This document shows, one piece after another, positions 1 through 9,141 of a stretch of 14,668 nt of DNA. Positions within the stretch are counted from its first letter, which is position 1, and each line of letters starts with the position of its first letter. Origin of the DNA: Thermotoga sp. (GTDB lineage: Bacteria > Thermotogota > Thermotogae > B3-G13); the NCBI GenBank assembly GCA_003641555.1, contig QNAT01000004.1, forward strand, positions 1 to 14,668. Direction: 5' to 3'. Below the pieces are notes generated by a model, which was not told the origin of the DNA, made no database searches, and saw nothing but the letters and a program-made list of their open reading frames with translations. The position numbers were made by a program, and so were the translations under genes.

Positions 1-677
1 AATACATTACCCATTGCTACGATCTCACCCTCTTTGAGCAAAATGATCCCATCACACATCTGTGCAGCAACGTTGACATCGTGGAACGCACCTAAAACTG
101 TCGTATTTTCCTCTTCGTTTTTTCTCTTTATCACTCCGATCAGGTCAGCTCTATGCCCTATATCCAGATGAGCAGTGAATTCATCTAATAACAAAAGCCG
201 AGGTTCTTGAACGAAAGCCCTCGCTATTACGGTTCTCTGCCTCTCACCACCACTTATCGCCTTTATATTTCTTCTTTCCAATCTCTTGATCTCTAATTTC
301 TCCATCCATCTGTCCACCAGATCTATTTCTTCTTTTGTAGACGAATGAAATACAGAAGAATAGGGCATCCTACCCATCCAGACTATATCCTTTACCGTAA
401 ACGCAAAGAGCGGGCTGAATTCCTGTGAGACTACAGAAATCACCCGAGCTATCTCATGCCTACGATACGTTTTCACTTCTTTTCCAAAGACCTCAACCGA
501 TCCTATTTCATATCTTAAAACTCCTGAAATAATATTGAGTAAAGTACTCTTACCACTTCCATTTGGTCCGAGTAGACCGACTATCTTTCCTGGTTCAATA
601 TCAAAAGATATATCATTTAATGCTTTATTTCCATTTTCATAAGAAAATGAAAGATGATCAACATCTATCGCTTTCAT
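1..677 (-). CDS. btuD: Cobalamin/corrinoid ABC transporter ATP-binding protein, C-terminus cut by window edge
   Basis: This is the ATPase of a BtuCD-type importer and works at the inner face of the membrane. I translated the minus strand by hand from the ATG at 677: 225 codons are present and the frame stays open past base 1, so the C-terminus lies outside the window. The motifs seen are Walker A GPNGSGKST (residues 37-45), a Q-loop near SQEF (84-87), the ABC signature ISGGERQR (141-148), Walker B LLLLDE (161-166), a D-loop AHLD (169-172) and the switch histidine in FHD (H199). All catalytic positions are intact. Its start overlaps the btuC stop by 4 nt (ATGA), so translation is probably coupled. 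Cobalamin rather than iron-siderophore substrate is inferred from the upstream cobalamin riboswitch and the adjacent cob operon, because the protein family alone does not separate the two. Confidence 0.93.
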   Translation of the reverse strand, partial: MKAIDVDHLSFSYENGNKALNDISFDIEPGKIVGLLGPNGSGKSTLLNIISGVLRYEIGSVEVFGKEVKTYRRHEIARVISVVSQEFSPLFAFTVKDIVWMGRMPYSSVFHSSTKEEIDLVDRWMEKLEIKRLERRNIKAISGGERQRTVIARAFVQEPRLLLLDEFTAHLDIGHRADLIGVIKRKNEEENTTVLGAFHDVNVAAQMCDGIILLKEGEIVAMGNV

Positions 678-1678
678 ACTCTCTTACCCTTCTTCATTAA
701 ATAGATGAAAAGCGGCGTACCTATGAAAGCCGTCACGACACCTATGGGAACTTCTGCAGGTGAGGCTACAGTTCTCGCAATGCTATCACACACGGGTAAG
801 AATATAGCCCCTATAACTGCAGATAACGGCAGCACCAATCTGTTATCCGCCCCTACAATAAACCTGGCTACATGAGGTATGACCAAACCTACAAAGCCTA
901 TGATTCCTGTATTGGATACGATGAAGGCAGTCATGAGAGAAGAGGTGATCAAGAGTACGATCTTAATACGCTTTGTTTCCACCCCTAAGTGCATAGCTTC
1001 TTCTTCTCCCAAAGCCATAGCATTTAATTCTGAAGAAAAGAAGAATAGAAAAATGCTTCCAATGATAACCGGAATGAAGGTTATTTCAAAAGTTCCCCGG
1101 CTTGCGTTAGAAAGGCTTCCAAACAACCAGAACATTACATTTGTAGTACCACGCCAACCAAATACTATTGTAAGAGTAGTAGCCGCACCAAATAGCATGC
1201 TCACTATTACCCCTGCGAGTATTACCTGTCCAACAGGTAATTTTCCTCCTTGATTGGCTATCAGGTAAGTCAACAATCCTGCAAAAAGGGCAAATAAAAA
1301 CGCAACAGGAGATACATAACCTATTAAAAATACATTGAAGAGTTGTTGAAGGGCAAAGACCAATGTTGCTCCAAAGGCTGCACCAGAAGATATACCTAAG
1401 ATGTATGGATCGGCAAGTGGATTTTTTAACAATGCTTGAAGGGTTGCACCTACTACTGCTAAACCCCAGCCTGTTGTCATTCCCAACAATACTCGGGGTA
1501 GGCGTATTTCAAGAATTACGGTAGAAAGAGGAGTTCTTCTTTTATTCCCGAGTAGTATATCAAATAATGACATAAATGATATATGTACAGTGCCAAGTTT
1601 AAGGGTAAGTATGGCAGTCGCAAAAGCGACCACCATACTCAAAGGTAACCAGATCAATAATTTCTTTTTCCACTCCAT
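674..1678 (-). CDS. btuC: Cobalamin/corrinoid ABC transporter permease (FecCD/BtuC family)
   Basis: This 334-residue polytopic membrane protein is the usual length for a BtuC/FecCD permease. Hydrophobic segments run almost throughout, beginning with LLIWLPLSMVVAFATAILTL near the N-terminus. Family hallmarks are visible: RLPRVLLGMTTGWGLAVVGA (about 59-78), NPLADPYILGISSGAAFG (about 86-103), and the C-terminal GIIGFVGLVIPHVARFIVG block, followed by a segment ending in GTPLFIYLMKK. The IPHVAR region corresponds to the loop that contacts the ATPase in this family. The ATG lies only 3 bp after the btuF stop and no good Shine-Dalgarno is visible, so translation is probably coupled to btuF. The stop overlaps the btuD start. 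The substrate is inferred from context, as for btuD. Confidence 0.93.
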   Translation of the reverse strand: MEWKKKLLIWLPLSMVVAFATAILTLKLGTVHISFMSLFDILLGNKRRTPLSTVILEIRLPRVLLGMTTGWGLAVVGATLQALLKNPLADPYILGISSGAAFGATLVFALQQLFNVFLIGYVSPVAFLFALFAGLLTYLIANQGGKLPVGQVILAGVIVSMLFGAATTLTIVFGWRGTTNVMFWLFGSLSNASRGTFEITFIPVIIGSIFLFFFSSELNAMALGEEEAMHLGVETKRIKIVLLITSSLMTAFIVSNTGIIGFVGLVIPHVARFIVGADNRLVLPLSAVIGAIFLPVCDSIARTVASPAEVPIGVVTAFIGTPLFIYLMKKGKRV

Positions 1679-1681
1679 TGT

Positions 1682-2608
1682 CTATTTTTTGAAGAAATAC
1701 TTGTTCAACAGCTCAACTGCATCTACTAAGCGAGGACCCGGTCTGTAAAGAATATTTTCATCCACAAAATATATATGTTTATTCTTTACCGCTTTTATAT
1801 TTCCCCAACCAGGGCGATGTGTGACAAACGAGATGACTTTATCACGCGCTTTTCCTGTTCCCATCGCTTTGCCCTCAGGTATTATTATGATATCAGGGTC
1901 GTTCATTACCACAAATTCGGGATTTATGGGCAGCCATCCACTCGGACCGATCAGCCTACCAGTAATGTTTCTTCCCCCAGCCAGAGAAATTGCCTCATTC
2001 AAAAAAGAACCTGCTCCTGGTGCCCATATATCCTTATACTCTCCACCCACGAGAACCTTTGGTCTCTTGTCTATGGGTATGTTATATGCAGATTTTGCAA
2101 CTTTCATAAGACGATCATTCAATTCCTTCACTTTTTTCTTCCCCACATCAGGATCACCCATGACAACAGAAACTAAAACAATATCCTTGAACATGCCATC
2201 AAAATTCTTTGGATCGACAACTATTACTGTAAATCCCAACTTTCTCAAACCCTCAACACCTTTGGTTTGGAATCCACCAGTTGCAAAAATGACATCTGGA
2301 TCGAGTAACGCGATTTTCTCTTTGTTCAATGGTGCCATCTGTCCTATTCGAGTGATTGATTTAACCTGGGGGGGATAGTCGGCATAATCCGTAACGCCAA
2401 CTACTTTATTACCAAAGCCCAGGTAAAATAGTATTTCAGTATTTGCTGGGGCAGTGGATACAATTTTCTGGGGTTCACTGTTGATAACCACCAATGTATT
2501 AGAGTCATCTACTACAGACAGAGGATAAGTCGTCGTACCAGCAAAAGCAGTGATCAAAGAAAATGTTAAAACGAGAATACTAAAGAAGACAATAAGACTT
2601 CTCTTCAT
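1682..2608 (-). CDS. btuF: Periplasmic cobalamin/corrinoid-binding protein
   Basis: This is the substrate-binding component of the ABC importer. I chose the ATG at 2608 (308 aa, MKRSLIVFFS...) over an upstream in-frame TTG at 2623. The TTG is itself part of the Shine-Dalgarno TTGGAGGTG, which sits 6 nt before the ATG. A signal peptide is clear (hydrophobic core LIVFFSILVLTFSLI, probable cleavage after AFA). There is no lipobox cysteine, so the protein appears free in the periplasm rather than lipid-anchored. Family features include PQKIVSTAPANTEILFYLG early on, LLDPDVIFATGG mid-protein, and GGRNITG plus the typical BtuF/FhuD tail. It is first in btuF-btuC-btuD, about 110 nt downstream of a cobalamin riboswitch, which is the main argument for a corrinoid ligand. 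Confidence 0.9.
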   Translation of the reverse strand: MKRSLIVFFSILVLTFSLITAFAGTTTYPLSVVDDSNTLVVINSEPQKIVSTAPANTEILFYLGFGNKVVGVTDYADYPPQVKSITRIGQMAPLNKEKIALLDPDVIFATGGFQTKGVEGLRKLGFTVIVVDPKNFDGMFKDIVLVSVVMGDPDVGKKKVKELNDRLMKVAKSAYNIPIDKRPKVLVGGEYKDIWAPGAGSFLNEAISLAGGRNITGRLIGPSGWLPINPEFVVMNDPDIIIIPEGKAMGTGKARDKVISFVTHRPGWGNIKAVKNKHIYFVDENILYRPGPRLVDAVELLNKYFFKK

Positions 2609-2670
2609 GCTATACACCTCCAATTAATATGATACGTAACAAACAAAAAAAATCATCAGGAGATATACAG

Positions 2671-2720: not shown

Positions 2721-2905
2721 CACCTCCTCTAACCGCGAAGGACGGTTTTTTATGAGTTCTCATGGCAGGTCTCCTGACTCGTGGTTCATCCTCTTCCCGG
2801 CCTTCCCAGACATCGTGTCCAGTGGCGTTACATCGGGATTCGTCCCCACTCACAGTGGCGCGTCCGTACCGGATTTCCACCGGTTTCCCTTACACCATGA
2901 AACTA
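2721..2905 (-). promoter_or_regulatory. Cobalamin riboswitch 1 (leader of btuFCD)
   Basis: Read on the minus strand, this holds the adenosylcobalamin aptamer core: GCCACTG in the conserved middle and the B12-box-like GAGTCAGGAGACCTGCC. A closing P1 stem pairs AGTT(T)CATGG at 2905-2895 with CCATGAGAACT at 2765-2755. A small hairpin at 2747-2731 (stem AACCG/CGGTT, loop TCCTTCG) sits just before the Shine-Dalgarno AGGAGGTG (2728-2721). No U-run follows the hairpin, so control is probably at translation initiation rather than by termination. The loop CCTTC can pair with GAAGG in the GGGAAGGCC segment of the aptamer, as in the known L5-L13 kissing loop. High B12 should repress. The aptamer is 151 nt long. 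Confidence 0.93.
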
Positions 2906-2912
2906 CATAATT

Positions 2913-2918
2913 ATTATA
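2913..2918 (-). promoter_or_regulatory. -10 element of the riboswitch 1/btuFCD promoter
   Basis: The minus strand reads TGGTATAAT here: a perfect TATAAT with the extended TGn motif. It is placed so that transcription would start at about 2906, the first base of the riboswitch. No good -35 hexamer is visible (TTCTTA at a 17-nt spacer is weak), which is common for extended -10 promoters. No terminator hairpin separates it from the decayed cobD just upstream, so read-through from the cob operon is also possible. Confidence 0.6.
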
Positions 2919-2957: not shown

Positions 2958-3537
2958 TCAGTATAAATAAGACTTAATAATTTTGATAAGTTTCCTATCT
3001 TCCTCTGGTTTTTTGGTCGATACTCTTACATATTCTGGCAGTCCGAAAGATGCGCAATTTCTAAACCATCATATTGTTACGCATAAGCTCTGTAAGTAGT
3101 TTATCCTTATTTTTGACTTTGACAGTGCAAAAATTAGCTGCAGTTTTAACACCAGGTATTTTAGAGACAAACTTTTTCTCTTCCCAAATCTTCGGCATTG
3201 ATTCCTTCAAAAACTGCCTATCATCCTGCAAGATTTTCTCTATAAATGCTTTTCCTATAGCACCTATGCTCCATGGCATCTTTACATTTCTCATTTTACC
3301 GTATGGGTCTAAAAAATATCCGATTCTTATGCCTGGTAGGCCATAAGATTTTGTGTAAGTTCTAAGATGTATCGCACCATCGTAAACATAGTGCTTTTCC
3401 CAATTATCTGGCATATCTTCTCGACTCTTCGAGTGCTGCATAAAAGAATTTTGGAATATAGGGATTCACAGAAATAGAAAAATCAATAACACCTCCAGTA
3501 TAATCGCAAATGGCAGATAAAGGTATAATATCTAAGT
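2958..3537 (-). pseudogene. cobD: Decayed cobD (L-threonine-O-3-phosphate decarboxylase), internal deletion plus frameshift
   Basis: The intact PLP enzyme would make (R)-1-aminopropan-2-ol phosphate for the nucleotide-loop arm. Three pieces in three frames are visible. Piece one (about 3537-3404, ends in TAA) reads GGVIDFSISVNPYIPKF...EESRRYAR, the N-terminal region, with no obvious start codon. Piece two (about 3425-3061) reads DMPDNWEKHYVYDGAIHL, then RTYTKSYGLPGIRIGY with the PLP lysine. Piece three (about 3073-2958) reads [20 protein letters not shown] and the natural C-terminus. Roughly the first half of the large domain is missing between pieces one and two. Pieces two and three are separated by one extra T in GTTT near 3068. 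The ATG at 3441 that would open a 126-codon frame is an out-of-frame reading of piece one, not a real start. Homology calls are from remembered motifs of the CobD/HisC family. Confidence 0.85.
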
Positions 3538-4125
3538 GCTCTTTTTATATCTTTTTTTCAGGGAGTTTTTTTCTTCCAGAATGATATACGTTCCTTTTTT
3601 CTCTAATTTTCTATCCAATACATCAGCCATCGCACTTATGGAGTATGTACCGTTTATCTTAATGCCACCGTACTTTTTCACGGAATCCCAAACACCTTTG
3701 AAATTCAAAGGCAAGAAGAACAGTACACACAGCCTTGCAGGAACAAAGTTAAGAACATCATCTATCCTTGCAGCGGCCTTACCAAACTTCTCATACATTT
3801 CATTTCTGTATCCTATCATTGCATCCATCGTGTTCGTAAATCTTTGGAATAGTATGCCTGGCAAAACCAAACAAGAGGTAATAACTCCGTTAAATAAATT
3901 GTGCTCCATTTTTTCATCTAAAAACTGTATTACTTTTCCTACCCACACAACAGGATGAAAAGCATGTTTTGGTTCACCGCAGAATTTGTTGAAGACAAAA
4001 CCCTTAATGAGATCGCATTCTCTTTGTGTAAGTAGTTCCATTGTTCCAACTATAGCAGCAAAAGAACCACCTCGTTCGATATCTGTAACTATTATTGTGT
4101 CCGCGTTAACAGCTAAGGAACAACG
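3532..4125 (-). pseudogene. Chimeric remnant: middle of cobQ/cbiP fused in frame to a deleted cbiB
   Basis: One open frame of 198 codons joins two genes. From 4113 it reads [20 protein letters not shown] and IVGTMELL...[11 protein letters not shown], the GATase-independent amidotransferase core of cobyric acid synthase (CobQ/CbiP, family motif DIDRGGxFAS...KGFIINKF). At CGEP it switches to [20 protein letters not shown], the N-terminus of adenosylcobinamide-phosphate synthase CbiB. After a hydrophobic stretch ([14 protein letters not shown]) it jumps to [20 protein letters not shown] and [14 protein letters not shown], the CbiB C-terminal half. The CbiB centre with its usual RD and ATVE..AEN motifs is missing, as is the whole CobQ glutaminase domain. 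The ATG at 4041 would give a 169-residue protein, but it lies inside CobQ sequence with no convincing ribosome site. Neither activity can be expected to survive. Confidence 0.85.
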
Positions 4126-4222
4126 CTATAACCTTTGCGAGTCAATATACGGCAAATTGCAGCTGCAATTAAGGATTCCCTACACCAGATGAAGTACCCA
4201 CGACCATAATAGATTTTCCCAT
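4113..4222 (-). pseudogene. cobQ: Decayed N-terminus of cobQ/cbiP (cobyric acid synthase)
   Basis: The ATG at 4222 lies 2 nt after the cobS stop, with a good Shine-Dalgarno (GGAGAAG) inside the cobS 3' end. The frame begins MGKSIMVVGTSSGVG, the P-loop start of CobQ/CbiP, then hits TAA after two more codons. One base to the side, the reading [20 protein letters not shown] continues the same protein. The break is one missing A in the P-loop lysine codon (AAA reads AA near 4176), so GVGKS is interrupted. After VVP a TAG follows and about a hundred expected residues are missing before the CobQ core resumes in the next entry. The position shows cobQ was once the fifth gene of the cobT operon, translationally coupled to cobS. 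Confidence 0.85.
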
Positions 4223-4224
4223 AT

Positions 4225-4917
4225 TTACTTCTCCAGGAAAATCGGCACAGATATGATAAATAACTGGCTCAGCAAACATGTGGCTCCTAGTACATCGCCT
4301 GTGTATCCATCTATTTTCTTTTCGGTTAACAATTTCATTATAAGGGCTGCTAAAAACGCTATGGTGATCGATGCAAGATAAAATTTCAAATTGAAGATAA
4401 GTGGTGCAGTAAACGCCAAACTCCAGAATGTATTTTTTGTATCATAAGGATAAAACAAACTCCCTAACCCTTTTTCTTTAGCAGGACGCGATATATTCAT
4501 TAGAATGTTCATAGAAAATCTGCCAAAGACACCCATGTATATAAGTGCTATAGCTTCTGTTTTGACAAAGGCATACAGATAAGCTGCACAGAAGAAAAAT
4601 GCGAAAAACACAGCAAATGGACCAATGTTCCCTTTTGACATTATCTCCATGCGTTTTTTTTCATCTCCTTGATAGAAAAAGCCGTCAAATGTATCGAGCA
4701 AGCCATCAAAATGGAAAAGATCGAAGAAATAGAATCCGATCACGATAGATAAAATCTGCCACAGCAAGTTCGAGGAAATACCCTTCAAAAACATATAGAG
4801 AAAACCTGAAAGATAACCTACAACTGTAAAATACCTCGTAGTATGTCGCATGTCACCGCTACCTCCTATAGGAAGCCTGCTCAGAAAGGATATGGTAAGT
4901 CTTATCTCATTTATCAA
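4225..4917 (-). CDS. cobS: Adenosylcobinamide-GDP ribazoletransferase (cobalamin synthase)
   Basis: This integral membrane enzyme joins adenosylcobinamide-GDP to alpha-ribazole(-phosphate), the last assembly step of the nucleotide loop. The 230 residues are slightly short but complete for CobS. The signature acidic motif HFDGLLDTFDGFF (residues 69-81) and the following EIMSKGNIGPFAV (91-103) match the family's DGxxDxxDG and IGxFG blocks. A second conserved block, GYTGDVLGA, is at 204-212. Several hydrophobic membrane segments fill the rest. The start is a TTG at 4917, supported by GGAGAG 6 nt upstream. The gene overlaps the 3' end of cbiR by 11 nt, and the ruined cobQ begins 2 nt after its stop. 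It is the last intact gene of the operon. Confidence 0.93.
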   Translation of the reverse strand: MINEIRLTISFLSRLPIGGSGDMRHTTRYFTVVGYLSGFLYMFLKGISSNLLWQILSIVIGFYFFDLFHFDGLLDTFDGFFYQGDEKKRMEIMSKGNIGPFAVFFAFFFCAAYLYAFVKTEAIALIYMGVFGRFSMNILMNISRPAKEKGLGSLFYPYDTKNTFWSLAFTAPLIFNLKFYLASITIAFLAALIMKLLTEKKIDGYTGDVLGATCLLSQLFIISVPIFLEK

Positions 4918-5497
4918 GGATATCTCTCCATAATTTAATAGAATCTTTAAGATCCTCTATATCGAATACCTCAAAATTGATCAGTATTTCGTCTATCATA
5001 TAATCCTTTATAACATCTGCCGTTTTTTTGTTAAGTGATAAATGATCTCTTCCTTTCTCGACGCCCATGGCATGAATTTCAACGATGTTATCTTTCAAAC
5101 TATTGGGGAAAGAAACACCGAGAATATGATGTCCTACATCAAATACCATCCTCTTATAAGGTTCAATGCGATCAATCAGATTCTCAATAGATACTCGATC
5201 ACTCCAGGAGTGTTTTTCCCACCCTTCGAGGGGATGTAAAACGTAATTTAAAACGGGAAACTTTGCATCCTCAATGAATTTAATCGCTTTATGTACGTGT
5301 TCCAGGTTATCAGTTGGTAGATGAATGGTATAAGAGAGATCAAGATCGAGAAGACACGGCATTTCCTTGTGTAGAAGTCTTTTGGTATCTTCATCCCATG
5401 TGTAAACGAGAAGCTCGACAAAATCAACAATGCCTTCGAGAATTCTTGCATTCTCGATATACGTGCCAGGAACAACCCAGGATGTAGAACCTATCAC
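4907..5497 (-). CDS. cbiR: CbiR-like cobamide-remodelling hydrolase (AP endonuclease 2/xylose isomerase-like TIM barrel)
   Basis: This 196-residue protein resembles xylose-isomerase-like TIM barrels in layout. It opens IGSTSWVVPGTYIENARILE and has strand-end metal-ligand-type residues spread along the chain: E28 in FVELL, H59 in YTIHLP, H88 in VLHPLEGW, D120 and H123 in FDVGHH, H142 in EIHAMG, H152 in RDHLSL and E176 in NFEVF. The known member acting on B12 is CbiR of Akkermansia, which cleaves the lower-ligand loop of cobamides to allow rebuilding with another base. The position between cobU and cobS, with a 4-nt overlap (GTGA) upstream and an 11-nt overlap downstream, strongly supports a cobamide role. 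It starts with GTG at 5497. Alternative readings are a generic sugar isomerase/epimerase fold or an alpha-ribazole-handling enzyme. The fold and pathway are fairly sure, the exact reaction less so. Confidence 0.68.
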   Translation of the reverse strand: MIGSTSWVVPGTYIENARILEGIVDFVELLVYTWDEDTKRLLHKEMPCLLDLDLSYTIHLPTDNLEHVHKAIKFIEDAKFPVLNYVLHPLEGWEKHSWSDRVSIENLIDRIEPYKRMVFDVGHHILGVSFPNSLKDNIVEIHAMGVEKGRDHLSLNKKTADVIKDYMIDEILINFEVFDIEDLKDSIKLWRDILDK

Positions 5498-5982
5498 TTT
5501 ATCTTCACACCTATCCCAGAAACCATAAAGTAAACCTCATTGGCCTGGAAAGCAAGAGTAGAATTGAGTTTTCCAAGTTCCTCAACATATTTTCTAGTTG
5601 TGGCATTGGCAGGGATGATACCCATTCCCACCTCATTACTCACAATTATTTCATTCCCATTAAGAGAGTCTATTAACTTTTTTACCATATTTTCAATGTT
5701 AATATTGTAATGCATAAGATTTCCCAACCAGGTGGTCATGCAGTCAATCACAAGCACATCGTAATTTGAAAGTTCGTTAAGAACATTTGGAATGTAAATG
5801 GGTTCCTCAAATGTATCAAAGGATGTGCTGCGTTTCTCCTTGTGTCTTTCTATTCGTACTTTCATTTCCTCATCGAATGGCTCCGCTGTTGCCAGAAAAG
5901 CTCTTCTTTCTCCCATTTTCATCGCAAGTTGTAAGGCAAAGGAACTTTTTCCTGACTTTTCCCCACCAGTTATGAGAATCAT
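5494..5982 (-). CDS. cobU: Adenosylcobinamide kinase / adenosylcobinamide-phosphate guanylyltransferase
   Basis: This bifunctional cytoplasmic enzyme phosphorylates adenosylcobinamide and transfers GMP to give adenosylcobinamide-GDP. The 162-residue length is slightly under the usual 170-180. The motifs are the P-loop GGEKSGKS (6-13), RIERHKEKR (43-51) with H47 as the expected guanylylated histidine, Walker B-like VLVIDCMTTWLGNL (76-89) and SNEVGMGIIP (115-124). The closing segment LGKLNSTLAFQANEVYFMVS is typical of the family. The ATG at 5982 overlaps the cobT stop by 4 nt (ATGA), with AAGGGGT as ribosome site inside the cobT 3' end. If the neighbouring CbiR releases adenosylcobinamide-phosphate, only the guanylyltransferase half is needed for remodelling. 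The kinase half would still serve imported cobinamide. Confidence 0.95.
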   Translation of the reverse strand: MILITGGEKSGKSSFALQLAMKMGERRAFLATAEPFDEEMKVRIERHKEKRSTSFDTFEEPIYIPNVLNELSNYDVLVIDCMTTWLGNLMHYNINIENMVKKLIDSLNGNEIIVSNEVGMGIIPANATTRKYVEELGKLNSTLAFQANEVYFMVSGIGVKIK

Positions 5983-6989
5983 AATTCATTACCCCTTACA
6001 ATGTTTGCATCATCAAACGTTGTCATTTCTCTTATCATGTGGATAGCAGCTTCGATTATGCTAAAAGACAGGACTGCTCCTGTACCTTCACCAAGTCTCA
6101 TATCAAGATCCAATATAGGCCTAAGTTTTAATCTATTCAGTATTACTGAATGCCCTTTAACTTTTGATTTATGTCCTGCAAACATGAAATCAACAACCTT
6201 TTGGTCTATATTATAAGCAATCAATGCGGCAGCTGTAGTTGGAAAGCCATCCAACACCACTGGCAATCTATTGTTTGCGCATTCAAGAATGAATCCGGCT
6301 ATCTCTCCAAAACAAAAACCTCCAACCTTTGAGAGTACATCTATTGGATCTTTGAAAGGAGAATGAATTTCCATAGCTTTTCTTACAACTTTTTCTTTTT
6401 TCTCTAATTGTTCCTTGCTTACAACCGTTCCAATATCAATGATATCTTCAAGTTTGTATCCAAAAGCTGTGGCAATCGCAGTTGCAGTTGTTGTGTTACC
6501 TATTCCCATATCACCAACAGCTATTAGATCTACTTTTCTATCAATAGCATGCCTTGCTACTTTTTTTCCGTAATCTATTGCACATTTTGCCTTTTTCCTT
6601 GTCATTGCTGTTTCTTTCAAAAAGTTCCTTGTTCCACGGCCAATTTTCATCTTCAAAAGTCCTGGACTTTCAGGAAAGTCAAAATCAACACCTGCATCCA
6701 CAACAAATACTTCACTACCAACGTGCCGTGAAAAAACATTTATAGCCGCTCCCCCCTTCAAGAAATTAAAAACCATTTGAGCAGTAACTTCCTTTGGAAA
6801 TGCAGAAATTCCTTCTTCAACGATTCCGTGATCCCCAGCGAAAACATATACAGCCTTTCTTCTCGGAAGTTCTGGAATTACCCTTCCCTGTATCATTGCC
6901 ATCTTAATGGCTATTTCTTCAAGGTAACCAAGACTTCCTTTTGGCTTGGCCAAATTGTTTAACCTTCTCTTGATATCATTTTTTAACAT
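5979..6989 (-). CDS. cobT: Nicotinate-nucleotide--dimethylbenzimidazole phosphoribosyltransferase
   Basis: This enzyme activates the lower-ligand base by moving phosphoribose from nicotinate mononucleotide, giving the alpha-riboside phosphate used by CobS. The 336 residues are full family length. Landmarks are LAKPKGSLGYLEE (13-25), VFAGDHGIVEEG (49-60), GDMGIGNTTTATA (159-171), LDGFPTTAAAL (246-256) and LDLDMRLGEGTGA (293-305), where E301 matches the catalytic glutamate of the Salmonella enzyme. It starts with ATG at 6989 and has only a modest ribosome site (ATAGGAA about 10 nt upstream). It is the first intact gene behind riboswitch 2, but nearly 400 bp separate them. Presence of the base-activating enzyme beside CbiR fits exchange of the lower ligand. 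Confidence 0.96.
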   Translation of the reverse strand: MLKNDIKRRLNNLAKPKGSLGYLEEIAIKMAMIQGRVIPELPRRKAVYVFAGDHGIVEEGISAFPKEVTAQMVFNFLKGGAAINVFSRHVGSEVFVVDAGVDFDFPESPGLLKMKIGRGTRNFLKETAMTRKKAKCAIDYGKKVARHAIDRKVDLIAVGDMGIGNTTTATAIATAFGYKLEDIIDIGTVVSKEQLEKKEKVVRKAMEIHSPFKDPIDVLSKVGGFCFGEIAGFILECANNRLPVVLDGFPTTAAALIAYNIDQKVVDFMFAGHKSKVKGHSVILNRLKLRPILDLDMRLGEGTGAVLSFSIIEAAIHMIREMTTFDDANIVRGNEL

Positions 6990-7372: not shown

Positions 7373-7557
7373 CACCTCCTCTAACCGCGAAGGACGGTTT
7401 TTTATGAGTTCTCATGGCAGGTCTCCTGACTCGTGGTTCATCCTCTTCCCGGCCTTCCCGGACATCGTGTCCAGTGGCGTTACATCGGGATTCGTCCCCA
7501 CTCACAGTGGCGCGTCCGTACCGGATTTCCACCGATTTCCCTTATACCATGAAACTA
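7373..7557 (-). promoter_or_regulatory. Cobalamin riboswitch 2 (leader of the cobT-cobU-cbiR-cobS operon)
   Basis: The aptamer spans 7557-7407 (151 nt) and the expression platform runs on to the Shine-Dalgarno at 7380-7373. By eye it differs from riboswitch 1 at only about three positions across some 185 nt, including the same GCCACTG core, GAGTCAGGAGACCTGCC, the P13-like hairpin (7399-7383) and AGGAGGTG. The closing stem AGTT(T)CATGG/CCATGAGAACT is identical. It points on the minus strand toward the cob operon, about 385 nt away. The lack of a U-run after the hairpin again suggests control of translation, which makes its action on distant cobT indirect. Confidence 0.93.
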
Positions 7558-7564
7558 CACCACT

Positions 7565-7570
7565 ATTATA
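7565..7570 (-). promoter_or_regulatory. -10 element of the riboswitch 2 promoter
   Basis: The minus strand reads TATAAT (GGAGTATAATAG), placed to start transcription at about 7558, the first base of the aptamer. A TTGATC lies 19 nt upstream as a possible, over-spaced -35. The arrangement mirrors the promoter of riboswitch 1, which also has TATAAT 7-8 bases before the aptamer. Confidence 0.55.
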
Positions 7571-7650: not shown

Positions 7651-9141
7651 TTACTTTTCCTTTTTCCCAATCACTTTAATACGATTTTGCACCTTAATAT
7701 CTATGACTTTTTGTGCGATCACCGCTTCGATCTCTGTTTGTGCCAGCGGAATGTGTGTATTAACCTTATTATGAGCCTCCAGATCGAAATATTTATCCTT
7801 ATCGTGTCCTATACCGTAATCGTTAAAGGTCCCCGTGTATATTTTATTGAGATCGAGAGGCTTCCCATTAACATAGATGTCTGTCACTCTTTCACCATAT
7901 TTTTTGTTCATATTAACAGTGCAAGTGATCCCCGACATCTGTAGATAATCCCATCCTCTCTCGAAGTTCCATTCCAATATATGTTTTAATTCTGCACCCG
8001 AAACCGTAAAAGTGGCAAGTGTATTATGGAATGGTGAGATCTCCATGATGTCTTTTTTGGTTATTGGCCCAGCTGGGAGATCTTTTCTTATCCCACCACT
8101 ATTTTGAAAGGCAAAATCTGTTCCCGTTTTAGCTCTCATTACATCAGTTTGCCAATCACCGATGTTGCTTTCTGGTTGAGTGCGAACCCATGGAGTTTTT
8201 AATTGTCCAATAACTGTCCCAAATTCCTCATCGATCATCTTCTGGTATTCCTCCACCATAGCTTTGATTTTGGCAGGGGGTTTTGCTTTTTCAGCAGATA
8301 ACCAGAGATCCTCTTCCTTTACCGATACAATTTTCTTATTCTCTACATCAATGGTGATCTTTCCTATGCCACCATCTTTACCAGAAGGTCCGGCTGCAAC
8401 ATAGATCCCATTGATCTTCGCTACATTACCAGAAGGACCTACTTCTCCTCCCTTTGCTGGTGCTTCTGCGGGTAAGATCAAATCTACGTTCGGTTGTGCG
8501 GCTGCTTTAGTATCTTCTTTTCCACCTTGTACGAGGACAAAGATCAAATCAGTACGTGGTTTCAAGAATTTAGCATACATGTTTACAACAGGGGCAATTG
8601 GAAGTACATCTAATCCTTCCGTGTTTTCTTTTATGATCTCTATTTTGAAGATCTCTTCCATTACTCCGATTATACCTATTCTTAATCCATTAACGTTGAT
8701 TATAGTGTAAGGCGGGAAGAATGGTTCTCCTGTTGAAGTGTAAACCACGTTCGCACAAACGGTTGGAAAATCAGCCAGCATGGCATAACCTATACAATTT
8801 TCCTGCCCTTTATCGAATTCATGATTTCCAGGGGTCCATACATCATATCCTAATTCATTCATGAATTCGATCATCGCTCCACCCAAAACACCTTTATAAG
8901 CTACATCAGAAATGAGCGTTCCTGTATTCACATCCCCGGAATCAACGACTATAACTCTGTTCGGATATTCTTTCCTCAATTTGATTATTTCAGCTGCCCA
9001 TGCTTCCATACCACCTTTACCTTTTTTAGGCAGATACATGCCATGCACATCATGACTCTGAACGATTACATATTCTGCTGCACTGGCAAGCAAACCCAAC
9101 AATAACAATCCTACGATCAGAATAACCATTACCTTTCTCAT
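7651..9141 (-). CDS. Secreted 5'-nucleotidase/UshA-family protein with an incomplete metal site
   Basis: The 496-residue protein has an N-terminal signal peptide (MRKVMVILIVGLLLLGLLAS, cleavage near ASA), then a calcineurin-like metallophosphoesterase domain and a C-terminal 5'-nucleotidase domain. Metal motifs present are SHDVHG (29-34, normally TNDxHG), VDSGD (66-70) and TPGNHEFD (97-104). The two other histidine motifs normally expected, SHxG and GGHSH, are absent: the corresponding places read LVQGGKED and DLILPAEAPAKGGE. The C-terminal substrate domain looks normal (ESNIGDWQTDVMRAKTG, NSGGIRKDLPAGPITKKD, ISPFHNTLATFTVSGAEL). The start is supported by GGAGG 8 nt upstream. Family members hydrolyse nucleotides or UDP-sugars outside the membrane; this one may be weak, use a different ligand set, or mainly bind. 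It lies downstream of dnaE but probably has its own promoter. Confidence 0.88.
   Translation of the reverse strand: MRKVMVILIVGLLLLGLLASAAEYVIVQSHDVHGMYLPKKGKGGMEAWAAEIIKLRKEYPNRVIVVDSGDVNTGTLISDVAYKGVLGGAMIEFMNELGYDVWTPGNHEFDKGQENCIGYAMLADFPTVCANVVYTSTGEPFFPPYTIINVNGLRIGIIGVMEEIFKIEIIKENTEGLDVLPIAPVVNMYAKFLKPRTDLIFVLVQGGKEDTKAAAQPNVDLILPAEAPAKGGEVGPSGNVAKINGIYVAAGPSGKDGGIGKITIDVENKKIVSVKEEDLWLSAEKAKPPAKIKAMVEEYQKMIDEEFGTVIGQLKTPWVRTQPESNIGDWQTDVMRAKTGTDFAFQNSGGIRKDLPAGPITKKDIMEISPFHNTLATFTVSGAELKHILEWNFERGWDYLQMSGITCTVNMNKKYGERVTDIYVNGKPLDLNKIYTGTFNDYGIGHDKDKYFDLEAHNKVNTHIPLAQTEIEAVIAQKVIDIKVQNRIKVIGKKEK

Follow-up and report, generated by a model that had tools for sequence, protein, structure and literature searches.

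Cobamide remodelling by CbiR has been characterised for the enzyme of Akkermansia muciniphila, whose products are adenosylcobinamide phosphate (AdoCbi-P) and alpha-ribazole (Mok et al. 2020, PMC7733943). Homologues of CbiR are present in 22 phyla. The amidohydrolase CbiZ, which acts ahead of CbiB in another remodelling route, also opens the nucleotide loop side of cobamides but, according to passages of PMC7733943 and PMC5282855, cuts another bond and leads to cobyric acid; the CbiZ route therefore needs CbiB, whereas the CbiR route does not. For the Thermotogae, passages of PMC3403396, PMC5282855 and PMC6461909 describe a cobinamide salvage cluster with a patchy distribution and losses, and name Kosmotoga olearia and Thermotoga lettingae as salvagers. 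Here we describe a cobT-cobU-cbiR-cobS operon followed by relics of cobQ, cbiB and cobD in a 14,668-base stretch of DNA (the window) from Thermotoga sp. The window is the whole of contig C4 (QNAT01000004.1) of a 1.80 Mb draft genome (G000) that comprises 362 contigs and is 71.7% complete, which sets the scope of the negatives given below for this genome.

The window protein resembles the CbiR of A. muciniphila in that it falls in the same NCBIfam equivalog, keeps the conserved His, Asp and Glu residues and is encoded beside cobT, cobU and cobS; rebuilding from cobinamide phosphate, as proposed in PMC7733943, would be shared as well. It differs in its length of 196 residues against a model of 249 positions, a comparison made through the family model. 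In addition, the Akkermansia locus holds cobDQ and cbiB, whereas cobQ, cbiB and cobD are decayed in the window. The cluster is of the same kind as the Thermotogae salvage cluster, but the passages cited above name neither CbiR nor relics, and the window shows the loss in progress. Neither the enzyme nor the gene set is of a new kind, the novelty being confined to the half-decayed state; among the open-licence papers returned by the literature searches, none mentions relics of these three genes beside cbiR in its title or the opening of its abstract.

An operon with a short CbiR behind a cobalamin riboswitch

On the minus strand, the order is riboswitch, cobT, cobU, cbiR, cobS, the relics of cobQ, cbiB and cobD, a second riboswitch and btuFCD-like genes. 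The operon and the relics comprise the following features.

7399..7566, minus strand: cobalamin riboswitch upstream of the operon (RF00174, 106.8 bits)
5979..6989, minus strand: cobT, nicotinate-nucleotide:base phosphoribosyltransferase (TIGR03160, 414.4 bits; PF02277, 418.9 bits)
5494..5982, minus strand: cobU, adenosylcobinamide (AdoCbi) kinase / AdoCbi-P guanylyltransferase (PF02283, 173.3 bits; NF004469, 165.5 bits, cut-off 161)
4907..5497, minus strand: cbiR, cobamide remodelling phosphodiesterase, 196 amino acids (NF041277 equivalog, 115 bits, cut-off 105)
4225..4917, minus strand: cobS, AdoCbi-GDP ribazoletransferase (PF02654, 140.8 bits; TIGR00317, 106.1 bits, cut-off 110)
3973..4223, minus strand: cobQ relic, three short pieces in three frames (tblastn of intact CobQ)
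3532..3978, minus strand: cbiB relic (PF03186, 128.4 bits in two stretches; tblastn)
2961..3511, minus strand: cobD relic, three pieces in three frames (tblastn of intact CobD; TIGR01140, 45.8 bits, cut-off 290.55)

The four genes overlap end to start by 4, 4 and 11 bases, and cbiR starts with a GTG that overlaps the cobU stop. The sequence-only reading had proposed a compact operon with overlapping ends at 4225-6989, and the family matches confirm both its coordinates and its gene identities. CobU contains the sequence GGEKSGKS, which we take to be the kinase P-loop.

The same reading had placed a CbiR-like barrel between cobU and cobS, and comparison with the curated CbiR equivalog model, together with the kept ligand positions, bears this out. 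Across the class, the frames counted as CbiR scored 101.5-158 bits, whereas the next protein scored 68.5; this gap (101.5 vs 68.5 bits) rules out another sugar enzyme of the AP-endonuclease-2 type as the identity of the 196-residue protein. Of the 63 sequences retrieved, 62 were aligned (its own included; P0060, with 67% query coverage, was excluded). H59, H88, E105, D120, H123, H142, H152 and E176 are invariant among them and are candidate metal ligands, and D151 is nearly invariant. We presume that these His, Asp and Glu positions correspond to the ligands of endonuclease IV. The AlphaFold2 model has a mean predicted local distance difference test score of 97.2 and ten strands, eight of which can be read as a predicted TIM barrel. 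Its best match in the Protein Data Bank is the D-tagatose 3-epimerase-like structure 3wqo (template modelling score 0.70 by query length, root-mean-square deviation 5.6, 15% identity). No Pfam family matches the protein at E 0.01, and its profile has no match by sequence among solved structures at the same threshold. Lengths of 195-199 residues recur often in the top CbiR matches. The gene lies between cobU and cobS and is read on the same strand as these cobamide genes. Judged by the family model and the ligand positions, the 196-residue protein is a CbiR, and it extends the family to a very short barrel.

Decay of cobQ, cbiB and cobD

The relics were mapped by tblastn of intact proteins from four relatives and of the protein P0065. 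The cobQ relic, whose matched pieces span 4216-3973, consists of 13 and 21 residues in two frames and, after a gap of more than 110 codons, 47 residues in a third frame; its glutamine amidotransferase half is gone. The two stretches of the cbiB relic (3978-3862 and 3864-3565) lie in one frame and correspond to residues 14-52 and 149-248 of the 296 in P0065, the middle, near 100 codons, being deleted. They share their frame with the last cobQ piece, forming a 169-residue open reading frame (ORF) at 3532-4041. In the cobD relic, whose matched pieces span 3511-2964, about 145 missing codons separate an N-terminal piece from a central one, and a frame change precedes the C-terminal end. The whole relic stretch measures about 1.26 kb, against 3.3 kb for the intact genes at the same place in the relative G029. 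That the decayed genes are exactly cobQ, cbiB and cobD, as had been read from the sequence, is upheld by the matches of the pieces to intact relatives.

The longer relic pieces share 37-58% identity with the intact relatives. The living CobU, CbiR and CobS share 62, 58 and 47% with their G029 counterparts and 34-60% with the proteins of other cbiB-keeping relatives. As the relic identities lie within this living-gene range (34-62%), the decay appears to be recent. In the protein collection, the 169-residue relic ORF is recorded as one sequence found on two contigs. The longest has 25,548 bases and thus exceeds the 14,668 of the present contig. An error confined to this contig is therefore excluded, though both contigs may stem from the same reads. 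The decay of the three genes is confirmed as real.

The rest of the corrinoid pathway in the draft genome

There is no other, intact cbiB in the draft, and none of the 29 class genomes with an intact cbiB has a second copy. The single CobD-family match (E 1.2e-12, position not listed) is as strong as that of the relic in the window. The expectation that no intact cbiB or cobD would lie elsewhere agrees with the draft at its 71.7% completeness. Matches to GATase_3 reach at most 36.2 bits in this genome, compared with 126-169 bits for the CobQ-type proteins of relatives. CbiC, the sole marker of corrin-ring synthesis searched, is not present in the draft. One adenosyltransferase of the CobA/CobO/BtuR type is encoded on contig C73, beside a gyrB-like gene (PF02572, 215.2 bits). 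B12-binding domains score above the cut-off at four places, two of which, named by reading their ORFs, are MetH-like and methylmalonyl-CoA mutase loci.

CbiR and the retention of cbiB in the class

The complete cluster cobT-cobU-cbiR-cobS-cobQ-cbiB-cobD-cobO is present in G022, G019 and G028, and G040 and G029 have cobU-cbiR-cobS-cobQ-cbiB-cobD with no cobT within the stretch examined. CbiR thus stands at the same site in relatives with an intact cluster, indicating that it is older than the decay.

The class survey covered 103 genomes. CbiR was counted in 28, 27 of them above the cut-off; the frame of G060 (101.5 bits, below the cut-off) was included because it lies between cobU and cobS. An intact cbiB was found in 29 genomes. 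Both genes occur in 21 genomes, CbiR without intact cbiB in 7, cbiB alone in 8 and neither in 67, so that cbiB is kept in 21 of 28 genomes with CbiR and in 8 of 75 without it (Fisher p = 6e-10, relatedness ignored), as expected of parts of one pathway. The seven genomes with CbiR and no intact cbiB, several of which are incomplete drafts, are G000, where relics remain, and G002, G009, G015, G047, G051 and G083. CbiC was found in eight of the 103 genomes, all of which have both CbiR and cbiB; among genomes with CbiR, cbiB is retained in 8/8 with CbiC and 13/20 without it (p = 0.07). CobS was searched in 61 of the 103 genomes, a comparison outside which G009 (CbiR, no CobS) falls. Among the CobS-bearing genomes of this set, cbiB is retained in 11 of the 16 that have CbiR and in 7 of the 11 that lack it (Fisher p = 1.0, relatedness ignored), and the idea that CbiR presence predicts cbiB loss was rejected. 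The suggested association of the two, for which a co-occurrence survey had been proposed, therefore fails in this sample. Twenty further CbiR loci came from one peptide pattern and are no census; with L143 omitted, 19 genomes behind them were searched, and 12 keep cbiB. As G002, G083, G015 and G009 recur among them, this amounts to 12 of 15 new genomes.

G051 (locus L120) carries a bare cobT-cobU-cbiR-cobS operon with the same genes and order as the window, the proteins being 70, 64, 64 and 55% identical, respectively. Unlike the window, it shows no credible remnant of cobQ, cbiB or cobD within 1.1 kb downstream of cobS; a lone 23% match (E 2.4e-4, composition correction off) was taken as chance. 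No relics were found in the 1.0-1.5 kb searched after cobS in G002, G083 and G047; the search of this region covered these three genomes and G051, with G015 and G009 left out. In a tree of concatenated CobU, CbiR and CobS with 32 rows, representing 27 of the 28 class genomes with CbiR (G078 omitted) and 5 of the 20 peptide-pattern loci, G000 pairs with G051 (94/88, not starred), beside the cbiB-keeping G029 and G032 (100/99). The rows of G009 and Caldiserica are filled to only 32-33%, and the letter composition of six rows is unusual. The cbiB states on this tree require at least four changes. Since the relics of G000 are still well preserved, the loss in G051 is probably independent of that in G000.

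In G014, G034, G085 and G086, none of which has CbiC, CobQ lacks the glutamine amidotransferase domain but retains its synthetase part together with the C-terminal tail. Its frame is uninterrupted, codes for some 290 residues and lies between cobS and cbiB (L106:6789-7649, L108:7834-8547, L167:7131-7847 and L168:6177-6893); the protein may be a variant that uses ammonia, or may mark the beginning of the loss. A different CobQ-like frame without the amidotransferase lies elsewhere in the stretch in G084 and G091. The sole genome of the same genus, G001 (90% complete), has no CobS, no CbiB and no CbiR above the cut-off.

A probable corrinoid salvage and remodelling operon losing its cobyric acid branch

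By analogy with characterised homologues, the gene set probably imports B12-like cofactors, removes the lower base and fits another. The BtuFCD-like importer would take up cobamides, which would be adenosylated, and CbiR would cut the adenosylated cobamides to AdoCbi-P and alpha-ribazole. That CbiR opens the nucleotide loop to AdoCbi-P, a premise of the sequence-only reading, is known for the Akkermansia enzyme (PMC7733943). CobU would then form AdoCbi-GDP, CobT would activate a new lower base and CobS would join the two, and the kinase activity of CobU would be the entry point for imported cobinamide. On this scheme, cobQ, cbiB and cobD would serve only cobyric acid or its precursor. As no corrin-ring synthesis is seen, selection on the three genes would be weak, and they would decay. 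We are fairly confident that the locus is such a riboswitch-controlled salvage and remodelling operon, with cobQ, cbiB and cobD decaying under weak selection for want of ring synthesis.

Several points weigh against this interpretation. A search of the genome with the PF01261 profile gave eight places, all of them on other contigs; model positions 111-162 have no counterpart in this CbiR, falling between its two matched stretches; and we know of no assay for a CbiR protein this short. The sequence-only reading saw no CobC, which would be the final phosphatase, in the window, no genome-wide search for it having been made. CobS scores below the TIGR00317 equivalog cut-off of 110, as does the CobS of G051 with 97.2 bits. 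At the given completeness, an unseen intact cbiB is possible. The 13 of 20 CbiC-less genomes with CbiR that keep cbiB further indicate that the lack of ring synthesis is insufficient alone for the loss.

In an alternative explanation, CbiR itself drove the loss: the cutting of cobamides to AdoCbi-P made the cobyric acid branch redundant, so that salvage of cobyric acid gave way to remodelling. The genes that have decayed are indeed the three upstream of AdoCbi-P, and genomes with CbiR and without cbiB occur in several families of the class, with at least four changes of state on the 32-row tree. However, cbiB is kept by three quarters of the class genomes with CbiR (21/28), at a similar rate with and without CbiR among the CobS-bearing genomes (11/16 vs 7/11) and by 12/15 of the new peptide-pattern genomes, and CbiR was already in the cluster before the loss. 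Cobinamide salvage via CobU does not involve cbiB, cobD or cobQ, as pathway knowledge and a passage of PMC5282855 indicate, so that the loss can be explained without CbiR; loss of the cobyric acid branch needs only missing ring synthesis and salvage through CobU. We therefore regard a CbiR-driven loss as unlikely, and cbiB loss beside cbiR is no evidence by itself that remodelling replaced an older salvage. Of the evolution from an older route to remodelling put forward in the sequence-only reading, salvage and remodelling started by CbiR fits the data, whereas the replacement is unsupported, CbiR predating the decay in relatives.

Conversely, the operon could be a plain cobinamide salvage operon with CbiR as a marginal or non-working passenger, in keeping with the preserved P-loop of CobU and with the salvage cluster known in the lineage from passages of PMC3403396 and PMC5282855. 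Yet the cbiR frame is open, overlaps both neighbours and keeps its ligand positions while three neighbouring genes decay, and its product is 64% identical to the CbiR of G051, which makes a passenger role improbable. The fragmented and incomplete draft would also allow the decay to be an artefact of metagenome-bin assembly, the living cell having intact cobQ, cbiB and cobD. Deletions and frame changes that affect the three genes separately, with both flanks intact, and the occurrence of the same relic frame on two contigs, albeit possibly from the same reads, leave this explanation with hardly any credence.

We tentatively consider a stepwise history within this class, which is possible but doubtful: several independent reductions of the seven-gene cluster to a CbiR-centred four-gene operon, in which CobQ would first lose its amidotransferase half and later disappear altogether, CbiB and CobD following. 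The window would represent a rarely seen intermediate, and the cell would survive the last step because CbiR converts every cobamide taken up into AdoCbi-P. The natural stages (seven genes, truncated cobQ, no cobQ, four genes, relics) allow one to ask whether CbiR alters the usable corrinoids.

Neighbouring genes and further observations

The relics are followed by a second riboswitch and the importer genes.

2747..2914, minus strand: second cobalamin riboswitch, upstream of the importer genes (RF00174, 110.1 bits)
1682..2623, minus strand: btuF-like substrate-binding protein (PF01497, 109.4 bits)
674..1678, minus strand: btuC-like permease (ORF; named from sequence reading and position)
3..677, minus strand: btuD-like ATPase, truncated by the contig end (ORF; named from sequence reading and position)

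The btuF-like protein scores 85.1 bits with the BtuF model NF002894, below the cut-off of 234, and higher with TIGR04281 (131.4 bits), also below the cut-off. The riboswitch regions at 7571-7321 and 2919-2663 (minus strand) form a pair of direct repeats with 90% identity across 257 columns. They flank the whole operon and the relics, and recombination between them would delete both. A relic gene in the gap between the first riboswitch and cobT (7398-6990) was rejected, as no match among the loci compared was better than E 0.055. Upstream of the first riboswitch, a 5'-nucleotidase-like gene (7651-9141, PF02872) shows no sign of operon membership.

In six stretches with no cobT found, a protein of about 235-265 residues weakly resembling AIR synthase (AIRS) is encoded: L107:5436-6152, L164:4895-5614, L145:200-907, L146:838-1623, L148:7204-7998 and L116:1046-1750. 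Its gene directly precedes cobU-cbiR or cbiR, and in L116 it follows cobD. Four of the six proteins match PF00586 (AIR synthase) at E up to 1, the best at 3e-4, and no firm family was assigned. We take the protein as a candidate alpha-ribazole kinase of the CblS-like kind; if so, it would reuse the alpha-ribazole released by CbiR. Its neighbour in L116 weakly matches a component of ECF transporters, below the cut-off, and the similar-looking neighbour in L107 matches nothing. In the cobamide cluster of G029, a putative ATP pyrophosphatase of the PAB0415 family (L116:1747-2445, 317 bits) lies between cobD and the AIRS-like gene.

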